The translations under genes and the position numbers were made by a program. Below are positions 919-44,149 of a stretch of DNA of 64,000 nucleotides, piece by piece. Source of the stretch: Phaeodactylibacter luteus (GTDB lineage: Bacteria > Bacteroidota > Bacteroidia > Chitinophagales > Saprospiraceae); contig NZ_VOOR01000009.1 in the NCBI RefSeq assembly GCF_007993045.1, positions 1-64,000 on the forward strand, in the 5' to 3' direction. Positions within the stretch are counted from its first letter, which is position 1, and each line of letters opens with the position of its first letter. The notes under the pieces are model-generated. The model did not search any database. It was not told where the DNA came from and saw nothing but the letters and a program-made list of their open reading frames with translations.

Positions 919-1266
919 GGGCGCAAACCAGATTGTCGTTTTTTTTGGGGGCCTGCCCCTGCCGTGAGGGCAGGTGCCGCTATGCTACGGGGCTCGCTCT
1001 TCGCTCGGCCTTATCAGGCCTGCCGCCCCTTCGCAGCGCTAGGCCAATGCCAGGCTAGAGCCTTAAGCCATAAATCGCTGATACTTAAGTTGAAGTTATT
1101 TTCCGGCTAATCAAGGCGAAGGTTAGCGACTTTAGCCCGAGCTAAAGGAGCGGTTCTTTAACGAAGAGTAGGCGGAAAAGAACGAAACTTGGGGTGGCAA
1201 GGATTTATGGCTTGAGGCACTAGAGCCCCAAAAGCATAAACGCCTGCGACATTTTGGTTCACGCCC
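919..1266 (+). mobile_element. Class M miniature inverted-repeat element, copy M1 (long form)
   Basis: Its ends are GGGCGCAAACCAGATTGTCG and the inverse GGGCGTGAACCAAAATGTCG, 16 of 20 identical. A perfect 8-bp target duplication GTAAGGAG flanks it (911-918 and 1267-1274). The insertion splits domain VI of the group IIC intron. It carries a nested N element (1059-1219). It encodes no transposase, so it must be moved in trans, if at all. It is highly similar to copy M7 at 43772-44149, including the nested element. Confidence 0.85.
1059..1219 (+). mobile_element. Class N/P fold-back element, copy N1 nested in M1
   Basis: This 161-bp element has inverted ends (AGCCTTAAGCCATAAATC versus the inverse TGCCTCAAGCCATAAATC) and is flanked by CTAG on both sides (1055-1058 and 1220-1223). 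Inner arms TTATTTTCCGGCTA and TAGGCGGAAAA are complementary. Between them lie two modules, GGCTAATCAAGGCG and AACGAAGAG, and a TAGC-CCGA-GCTA hairpin. M copies without N have an undivided sequence at this point, which provides an empty-site comparison. No open reading frame is present. Confidence 0.8.
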
Positions 1267-36312: not shown

Positions 36313-36454
36313 GCGTTTTGAATTTTCATGCAATAGGCTGCACTTATGGCACAGCCGCCATTAAATCTACCAATATCCTGTGCTTTTCTCATAGAATGCC
36401 GGCCTTTAAATCTTGCTTGCACCAACATGGCAGGAAAAACCTCATATTTGCAGG

Positions 36455-37207
36455 ATGGAAAAACGCAGACTACCAGACTTTGAGATCCTATTCGGGCGCC
36501 ACCCGGTCACAGAAGCCCTGCAAAATGGTGTACCTATGGAAAAGGTGATGTTGCAGCAAGGCATAAGGGGCGAAATGGAAAAAGAGCTCCGCCACCTTTG
36601 CCGGGAAGCGGGCACCCCACTGCAGGTCGTGCCCAAAGAGCGGTTCAAACGCTACACTAAAGGCAATCATCAGGGGGTAGTAGCTTTCCAGGCATTGATC
36701 CGGTACCAGCGTATAGAGGATATCCTTCCCACGATTTACGAAAAGTCGGAATCCCCTTTGCTGATCCTGCTCGACGGCGTTACTGATGTGCGCAATTTTG
36801 GGGCTATTGCACGCTCCGCAGAAGCCTGTGGGGCACATGCCTTGATCATCCCACAAAAAAACAGCGCCCAAATCAACGGGGAAGCTATCAAAACCAGCGC
36901 CGGCGCGCTCAACCTCATCCCGGTATGCCGGGAAAAGAGCCTAATCACCACCATCGAGTTCTTACAAGCCTCGGGGGTGACCGTCTTGGCCAGCGACCTG
37001 CAGGCGGAGAAACCCCTGCATGAGCTAGACCTTAGCCGCCCTGTGGCTTTCGTGCTTGGTGCAGAGGGTGAAGGGATAAGCCCTGCGGTGGCCAAAAGTG
37101 CAGATGAGACCTTCATCATCCCACAGGTTGGGCGTACGGACTCCCTCAACGTCTCGGTGGCCAACGGGATGATGCTGTACGAAGCTATGCGGCAACGGAT
37201 GGGCTAG
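36455..37207 (+). CDS. rlmB: TrmH/SpoU-family 23S rRNA (guanosine-2'-O)-methyltransferase, RlmB-type
   Basis: A 250-residue enzyme. The substrate-binding N-terminal domain begins MEKRRLPDFEILFGRHPVTEAL (quoted in part). The SPOUT catalytic domain shows LDGVTDVRNFGAIARSAEACG (motif 1, about 105-125), a VFVLGAEGEGISPAV segment as FVLGAEGEGISP (about 205-216), and VGRTDSLNVSVANGMMLYE (motif 3, about 227-245). The ATG at 36455 is the family start; the open frame upstream to 36413 has no homology. The stop codon TAG is part of the CTAG flanking element P. Confidence 0.9.
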   Translation: MEKRRLPDFEILFGRHPVTEALQNGVPMEKVMLQQGIRGEMEKELRHLCREAGTPLQVVPKERFKRYTKGNHQGVVAFQALIRYQRIEDILPTIYEKSESPLLILLDGVTDVRNFGAIARSAEACGAHALIIPQKNSAQINGEAIKTSAGALNLIPVCREKSLITTIEFLQASGVTVLASDLQAEKPLHELDLSRPVAFVLGAEGEGISPAVAKSADETFIIPQVGRTDSLNVSVANGMMLYEAMRQRMG

Positions 37208-37368
37208 TGGTCTGTCAAGGCTAAAACTAGGGGTTGCCTGCGGCGGCTTTTGAGGCTACTCTTCGTTGGACAACCCCTTACGTAGCGCTGCTATGCGCGG
37301 GAACATCCGCCTTGATTAGCCTCAAAATTCGCTCCCACTCAACCCATAAATTAACACTTGACAGACCA
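37208..37368 (+). mobile_element. Class N/P fold-back element, copy P
   Basis: This 161-bp element has perfect inverted ends (TGGTCTGTCAAG) and is flanked by CTAG (37204-37207 and 37369-37372). Read on the minus strand, the inner arms TTTTGAGGCTA and TAGCCTCAAAA are perfectly complementary. Modules GGCTAATCAAGGCGGATGTT and AACGAAGAGTAG start at offsets 48 and 102, the same as in element N (47 and 102), although the arms differ in sequence. It sits directly after the rlmB stop codon. No protein is encoded. Confidence 0.8.
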
Positions 37369-37394
37369 CTAGCCTTTGGGCTTTATGAAAGCAA

Positions 37395-43771: not shown

Positions 43772-44149
43772 GGGCGCAAACCAGATTGCCGTTTTTTTTG
43801 GCCTGCCCCTGCCGCAAGGATAGGGGCCTGCCCCTGCTCGATGGCAGGTGCCGCTATGCTACGGGGCTCGCTATCCGCTCGGCCTTATCAGGCCTGCCGC
43901 CCCTTCGCAGCGCTAGGCCAATGCCAGGCTAGTGCCTTAAGCCATAAATCTCTGATACTTAAGTTGAAGTTATTTTCCGGCTAATCAAGGCGAAGGTTCG
44001 CGACTTTAGCCCGAGCTAAAGGAGCGGTTCTTTAACGAAGAGTAGGCGGAAAATAACGAAACTTGGGGTGGCAAGGGTTTATGGCTTGAGGCACTAGAGG
44101 CACTAGAGCCCCAAAAGCATAAACGCCTGCGGCATTTTGGTTCACACCC
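43772..44149 (+). mobile_element. Class M miniature element, copy M7 (long form)
   Basis: GGGCGCAAACCAGATTGCCG starts at 43772 and the inverse end (TGCGGCATTTTGGTTCACACCC) finishes at 44149. A perfect 8-bp duplication GGCACCTT flanks it (43764-43771, 44150-44157). It contains nested element N2 (43933-44093), and is the closest relative of M1. A 9-bp tandem repeat AGGCACTAG occurs just after N2. Confidence 0.88.
43933..44093 (+). mobile_element. Class N/P fold-back element, copy N2 nested in M7
   Basis: A 161-bp element identical in layout to N1: flanking CTAG (43929-43932, 44094-44097), inner arms TTATTTTCCGGCTA with TAGGCGGAAAATAA, and modules GGCTAATCAAGGCG and AACGAAGAG. The inner arm pairing is slightly longer here than in N1 because GGAAAATAAC replaces GGAAAAGAAC. 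Confidence 0.8.

Follow-up and report, generated by a model that had tools for sequence, protein, structure and literature searches.

The sequence analysed is a stretch of 64,000 nt from Phaeodactylibacter luteus (NCBI RefSeq assembly GCF_007993045.1, contig NZ_VOOR01000009.1, positions 1 to 64,000 of the forward strand), referred to below as the window. Three short elements, P, N1, and N2, lie in it (Table 1). P follows a SpoU methylase gene (36413-37207), and the TAG of its left CTAG doubles as the stop codon of that gene. A preliminary description, made from the sequence alone, had given each element as exactly 161 bp between CTAG boxes. Positions, lengths, and flanks were all recovered, with P on the minus strand relative to the N elements, and the boundary alone was moved. 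The duplicated target is most likely the TA inside CTAG, which makes the element about 163 bp (G...C), given the IS630 partner described below and the IS630 mechanism as set out in the available part of PMC2170065.

N1 and N2 are identical at 156/161 positions. P agrees with N1 at only 58/161 positions in an ungapped comparison, yet every element folds on itself with its arms pairing end to end, as had been described for arms that differ and still pair with their own opposite arm. The internal modules GGCTAATCAAGGCG and AACGAAGAGTAG are exact in P, N1, and N2, and a recount with P and N read in the same sense returned the reported agreement of 18/20 for module 1 and 16/20 for module 2. None of the three carries a transposase gene. 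A reading as in-frame insertions (161 + 4 is a multiple of three) was dropped, since all three are stopped in all six frames.

A second repeat family, starting with GGCGCAAACCAGATTGYCGTTTTTTTTGG, has three copies in the window, at 920, 14455, and 43773, and N1 and N2 occupy the same CTAG context in two of these copies. Rfam also places a group II intron D1-D4 match on the minus strand at 1668-1839 (70.3 bits), about 450 bp from N1.

Table 1. Features of the three elements in the window
Feature	Position	Strand	Remark
Element P (P-type MITE)	37208..37368	-	161 bp flanked by CTAG; modules read on the minus strand
Structured core of P	37243..37332	-	covariance model R1, 102.3 bits; P cores are part of R1
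Module 1 of P, GGCTAATCAAGGCG	37308..37321	-	sequence read
Module 2 of P, AACGAAGAGTAG	37256..37267	-	sequence read
Left CTAG of P	37204..37207	.	contains the TA taken as duplicated
Right CTAG of P	37369..37372	.	
Element N1 (N-type MITE)	1059..1219	+	inserted within CTAG of another repeat
Structured core of N1	1094..1184	+	R1, 97.9 bits
CTAG boxes of N1	left 1055..1058, right 1220-1223	.	
Element N2 (N-type MITE)	43933..44093	+	
Structured core of N2	43968..44058	+	R1, 104 bits
CTAG boxes of N2	left 43929..43932, right 44094-44097	.	

Copy number and taxonomic spread

The 14-mer of module 1 occurred 124 times in the 6.01-Mb host genome (G000) and its reversed control not at all, so the module is shared far beyond chance. 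Two covariance models were built, R1 from seven N and seven P cores and R2 from 54 core matches including P, N1, and N2. The R2 search returned at least 150 core matches in the host genome and 63 in the single-contig genome G106. The loci retrieved gave an alignment of 107 N and 41 P copies from the host genome. Near-identical copies of P are present in four further genomes of the genus, and N-like copies are present in Phaeodactylibacter xiamenensis KD52. Lewinella cohaerens DSM 23179 has another type. R1 matched 172/398 genomes of the same family, in 64/112 genera, at E ≤ 0.01 per genome, a cut-off that should let in a few genomes by chance. In the order draw, R1 matched 43/298 genomes, 15 of them outside the family, and in the phylum draw, R2 matched 16/395 genomes at E ≤ 0.001, 13 of them outside the family. 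The three draws overlap, and searches across more than 40 genomes were run with stricter filters. Each genome search scored no more than 10, 14, or 150 candidates per genome.

A pattern scan of titled records gave at least 40 matches, among them Phaeodactylibacter xiamenensis, Lewinella cohaerens, Saprospiraceae, Chitinophagales, and one Chlamydiia-labelled assembly. Folding of eight of these matches gave the same long hairpin each time, the module strand being more stable. Nothing in the viral contigs matched the one strict core pattern used. The Chlamydiia-labelled contig (L405) carries an N-type element like those of the host genome, from binning contamination or transfer. A P-type copy in G005 (L098) has 24 extra bases near the apical part of the core, and in G779 (L211, L222) three core matches stand in tandem within about 350 bp. 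Draft contigs end inside elements at L096, L100, L104, L109, L110, L122, and L243, so the hairpins appear to break assemblies.

Target site and IS630 partners

Copies of the host genome and its genus relatives were placed by script where the ends allowed it (a further 14 matches to the 14-mer had ends that could not be placed and were left out; 3 of these were chance occurrences in other genomes). CTAG stood on both sides in 87/99 placed copies and CTAA on both sides in 1, and in 11 one side differed. One empty target with a single CTAG was found, in L012, in a survey of 41 filled, 1 empty, and 13 other sites in which most loci had been retrieved because they were filled. Cores of neighbouring copies lie 164-166 bp apart, i.e., 161 plus one box. 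Boxes of other arm types were inspected by eye only. The CTAG pairs and the empty site indicate a duplicated target, most likely TA, and the elements are short, have inverted ends, and lack a transposase gene, as an IS630-type MITE should. Of 41 distinct short pieces with P-type ends on both sides, 40 match a loose pattern of the core and one is a decayed copy, although this is a weak test of core retention, most of the loci having been retrieved via their core. Duplication of TA by IS630-type elements is described in the available part of PMC2170065, where a CTAG preference of IS630 appears as the title of a reference.

A search for the end of P followed by a different next base found a 1.26-kb element, present in G000 and at three places in G001. 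Its HTH_32 and DDE_3 domains, in two overlapping frames, fit the IS630 family. Over 30 nt, its two ends agree with the two ends of P at 20, 22, 22, and 26 positions and with those of N2 at 5 to 9. With TA duplicated inside CTAG and the ends of P matching those of a complete IS630-family element in the host genome, the three elements of the window are non-autonomous transposons (MITEs) of the IS630/Tc1 type. At L250 (G001:C79:231861-233289), a P element adjoins a complete IS630 copy, with one CTAG common to both.

End sharing was compared in seven genomes with both IS630 and core ends read, and the ends match in four of them, G000, G001, G775, and G194; the IS ends are script guesses outside G000, G001, and G775. 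In G775, a distant complete genome, six IS630 copies end in CTAG-TGCTGCGTCAAG or CTAG-TGCCGTGTCAAG, and the two core elements read there (L212, L223) end in CTAG-TGCTSCRTCAAG, matching them. In G194, the IS ends match core element L141. The ends differ between element L139 and two IS in G135, between element L127 and an IS630 in G008, and between the P-type elements and the IS of L370 in G106, all with script-placed IS ends. The transposase of the P partner had no match in G106, which has DDE_3, 63 core matches, and P-type ends. Sharing of ends with a resident autonomous IS630 element is thus seen for the P-type elements of G000 and G001 and for elements in G775 and G194.

For the N type, searching G000 for N-type ends around a transposase found no partner. 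The first search gave two matches, one deleted N element and one lone end, and the second gave eight: four are N elements, three are deletion derivatives, and at one site a matching partner is missing. In the remnants L258, L259, and L263, flanking repeat sequence begins right after an N-type end, resembling a deletion footprint. In the draw of 398 genomes, DDE_3 was present in 71/172 core-bearing genomes vs 42/226 others (odds ratio 3.1, p=1e-6, uncorrected for genome size or assembly quality), and it was not detected in 101 of the 172.

Other mobile or structured classes were also considered. Transposition of the IS200/IS605 type proceeds without target duplication and ties the insertion strand to replication. 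This type was dropped, as the boxes are duplicated and orientation is split 13 to 16 (see below). Integron attC, IS200/605, bridge-RNA, omega-RNA, and small-ribozyme readings were all set aside because the duplicated target and the IS630 ends account for mobility; no known motif was seen by eye.

Fold, covariation, and strand asymmetry

Consensus sequences from 55 N and 41 P copies of exact length, the latter partly from genus relatives, fold more stably in the module sense than as the complement (N: -78.5 vs -53.8 kcal/mol; P: -81.2 vs -69.5 kcal/mol). In alignment A3, 95.0% of cells are paired and 29/31 core pairs have changed on both sides, although pairing inside the core is inflated, the rows having been chosen by the model and fitted to its structure. 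Double-changed cells number 444 vs a shuffle mean of 128, with slid versions reaching at most 131. When the 54 rows were reduced to 28, one per cluster at 75% identity, and whole 3' halves were dealt anew, 259 double-changed cells remained, against shuffles that averaged 75 and never exceeded 113, and the arm, middle, and apical helices each exceeded every shuffle. No fold was obtained for L207 and L209.

The loop letters AGGC and AACGMAG persist while the arms vary widely between families. Positions A23, G25, A74, and A75 are invariant across 28/28 clusters; C26, G77, and A79 are the same in 26, 26, and 27 of 28; position 78 is A or C; and the lone pair G24-C76 is identical in all 54 rows. 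In Rfam 15, no family exceeded its gathering cut-off over the core in the window, in P and N2 at permissive thresholds, or in 19 loci, and the lone match over an element was Ocean-VII, at 12.4 bits vs a cut-off of 53.5.

The preliminary description had proposed that arm replacement with preserved pairing reflects selection on a folded nucleic acid, to be backed by many copies with different arms and constant modules and undone by arms that do not covary or by modules that are end sequence of a known IS. The covariance searches returned just such copies, and the covariation counts and the outer-arm pairing given below support the proposal, since the arms do covary. The modules, for their part, are not end sequence of the IS whose ends P shares, as R2 found no core inside IS630 elements at ten loci of six genomes, including the element of G000. 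Its four matches all lay outside the G000 element and next to it, at a P copy and a more distant core. The latter (L330 2808-2917, G000:C279, 38.1 bits), beside the P copy and just outside the IS630 element, is probably a third element type in the host genome.

Pairing was also counted in the outer arms, which lie outside the model, so this count is free of the structure-fitting bias of A3. From the 54 rows, those with short flanks, with less than 60% pairing, or with a left arm matching an included one at 27/36 positions or more were removed, leaving 36 distinct arm types, and 36 nt on each side were aligned with equal scores for G-T and A-C. G-U oppositions numbered 85 vs 18 for A-C, with 29 arm types leaning to GU, 1 to AC, and 6 tied. 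The module strand was more stable in 37/37 segments (N1 and N2 both counted). G-U accounts for about 8% of standard pairs in the outer arms and 11% in the core. The asymmetry argues against a cruciform or arm-to-arm copying, as neither would yield it, and the elements combine covariation beyond the controls with strand-specific pairing, as a structured noncoding RNA should. Judging from the sequences, one strand, RNA or a single DNA strand, is selected to pair end to end, as the GU excess outside the model and the paired arms indicate. Compared with a DNA cruciform, a single strand, which is probably RNA, is favoured by the strand-specific pairing.

The folded form could instead be single-stranded DNA arising in replication, uptake, or transposition, its loop serving as a DNA-protein site. 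DNA hairpins tolerate G-T better than A-C, so the strand bias would fit here as well, and end-to-end pairing would suit a folded DNA substrate. GU shares of about 8-11% of standard pairs are, in our view, more usual for RNA. Replication gives no support, as insertions show no strand preference relative to the fork, 13 being co-directional and 16 head-on among 33 listed copies of three complete genomes (20 skew samples per genome served to estimate the direction of the fork, and four copies in G106 were left out because their orientation was unclear). Transposition of the IS630 type is, moreover, double-strand cut and paste, according to the available part of PMC2170065. We regard single-stranded DNA as unlikely. 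Since the GU share and the lack of a replication bias both prefer RNA, the selected strand is most likely RNA.

It is less likely still that these are ordinary IS630 MITEs in which pairing follows from alike ends and template switching (quasi-palindrome correction), the middle being a DNA site, for instance a bend or a place where a host factor binds, and the RNA having no function. The core has conserved TTTT/AAAA tracts, and AATCAA adjoins module 1 of P and N, features that we take to be reminiscent of DNA-bending or IHF sites. Homogenisation of the arms, however, predicts equal GU and AC, which the 85 vs 18 count contradicts, 29 of the 30 non-tied arm types leaning one way. The middle and apical helices of the core, too, have more double changes than the shuffles, and the IS630 elements tested are without this core. 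Long stem-loops are found in known bacterial MITEs too, as described in the available parts of PMC2229807 and PMC10969869.

Variation among copies and a proposed life cycle

Private variants per site in the host genome amounted to 0.45 in the ends, 0.34 in the inner arms, 0.42 in the modules, and 0.36 in the apical part for N, and to 0.20, 0.09, 0.19, and 0.24, respectively, for P. Variants shared between copies were fewer in the modules and apex (N: 0.27 and 0.29 vs 0.33 in the ends and 0.38 in the inner arms; P: 0.00 and 0.02 vs 0.07 and 0.09), a small drop that is to be read as a trend, as the loci were found by their core and strongly changed cores are under-counted. Among 50 tabulated loci, which include one chance 14-mer and one locus from another genus, 12 overlap a mechanical ORF call and 38 do not. 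Of the latter, 19 lie between tandem genes, 10 with transcription and 9 against. Insertion orientation looks random, and private mutations do not avoid the core. Both suggest that the fold benefits the spread of the element rather than the host locus. A regulatory RNA that serves the host as a 3'-end or processing element for neighbouring genes and was spread by transposition would suit the 38 loci clear of ORF calls, the start of P at a stop codon, and the effects that RNase III and RNase E are described to have with Correia and ERIC (PMC10969869, available part), but it is very improbable given the even split at tandem genes, the patchy distribution, and private variation of a kind that makes single copies look not kept for function.

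The reading we consider probable is an IS630/Tc1-type MITE family with an ancient structured core whose RNA aids its own spread. The outer 30 bp or so would be terminal inverted repeats that fit a transposase of the IS630 type. This enzyme would cut and paste the MITEs in trans into TA, preferably within CTAG for the types of the window, and the inner 100 bp or so would be the ancient core. On transcription of the module strand, the whole element would fold into one long hairpin and may present its invariant internal loop, RAGGC facing AACGMAG, to a protein. Such an RNA could raise the spread of the element, e.g., by recruiting the transposase or a host factor, which would overcome the preference of the transposase for its own copy. 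Alternatively, the gain might lie in making new insertions tolerable.

The ends can match a resident IS while the middle keeps one folded shape, probably as RNA, that is absent from Rfam. We tentatively raise the further possibility of a selfish RNA module, a single ancient structured RNA in MITEs throughout the Bacteroidota, swapping its ends to follow successive IS630 transposases and acting as RNA for mobilisation in trans. If true, such a module would correspond in bacteria to the SINEs, with DNA transposons rather than retrotransposons as the elements it parasitises. Small palindromic repeats tend to be regarded as decayed transposons. Across the phylum, widely differing arms paired on one strand and near-constant loops point to a role that the folded single strand plays for the element itself, and raise the testable question of how bacterial MITEs beat the preference of a transposase for its own copy. 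The covariance model can be used to annotate unmarked repeats in Bacteroidota, and the hairpins may explain some assembly breaks.

Comparison with known elements

The descriptions compared here are drawn from the available parts of the sources cited. As a folded core, the family is not in Rfam 15; as a mobile element, it is an IS630-type MITE and is nearest to RUP, ERIC, and Correia. RUP of Streptococcus pneumoniae, a MITE of IS630-Spn1, is similar in being short (107 bp), intergenic, and numerous (108 copies), with IS630-like ends and TA targets (PMC2229807). It belongs to another phylum, and its description, in the part available, is without a conserved folded core common to different-ended elements (PMC2229807). 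ERIC/IRU and Correia/NEMIS are likewise about 100-200 bp with TA ends and give single long stem-loop transcripts, with RNA-level effects via RNase III or RNase E (PMC2229807, PMC10969869). In the same available text, ERIC and Correia are listed by organism group, whereas here the arms vary widely between families and the internal-core loops are constant. QMITE1 and QMITE2 of Coxiella burnetii are small palindromic mobile elements with some copies expressed as small RNAs (PMC5896051). They differ in their direct repeats, which are 7-9 bp for QMITE2 (PMC10969869) and 2-4 bp for QMITE1, for which the available text reports no orthologues in other genomes (PMC5896051).

Non-autonomous repeats of the same phylum include BrickBuilt, MITE293, and MITE700 of Porphyromonas gingivalis and a Cardinium MITE (PMC4596501, PMC9769881), and long stem-loops are predicted for BrickBuilt (PMC4596501). 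As described, they are set apart by their ends, of the IS5 type in BrickBuilt and of ISPg3 in MITE293 and MITE700 (PMC4596501, PMC5771137), and by the IS982-type ends and IS982 derivation of the Cardinium MITE (PMC9769881). Compensatory changes in mobile-looking stem-loops were argued earlier for Borrelia plasmids (PMC2674063). ISY100 and IS630, of the IS630 family, share the TA duplication, and the ends of P are those of such an IS, but the autonomous elements of that family tested here are without the core.
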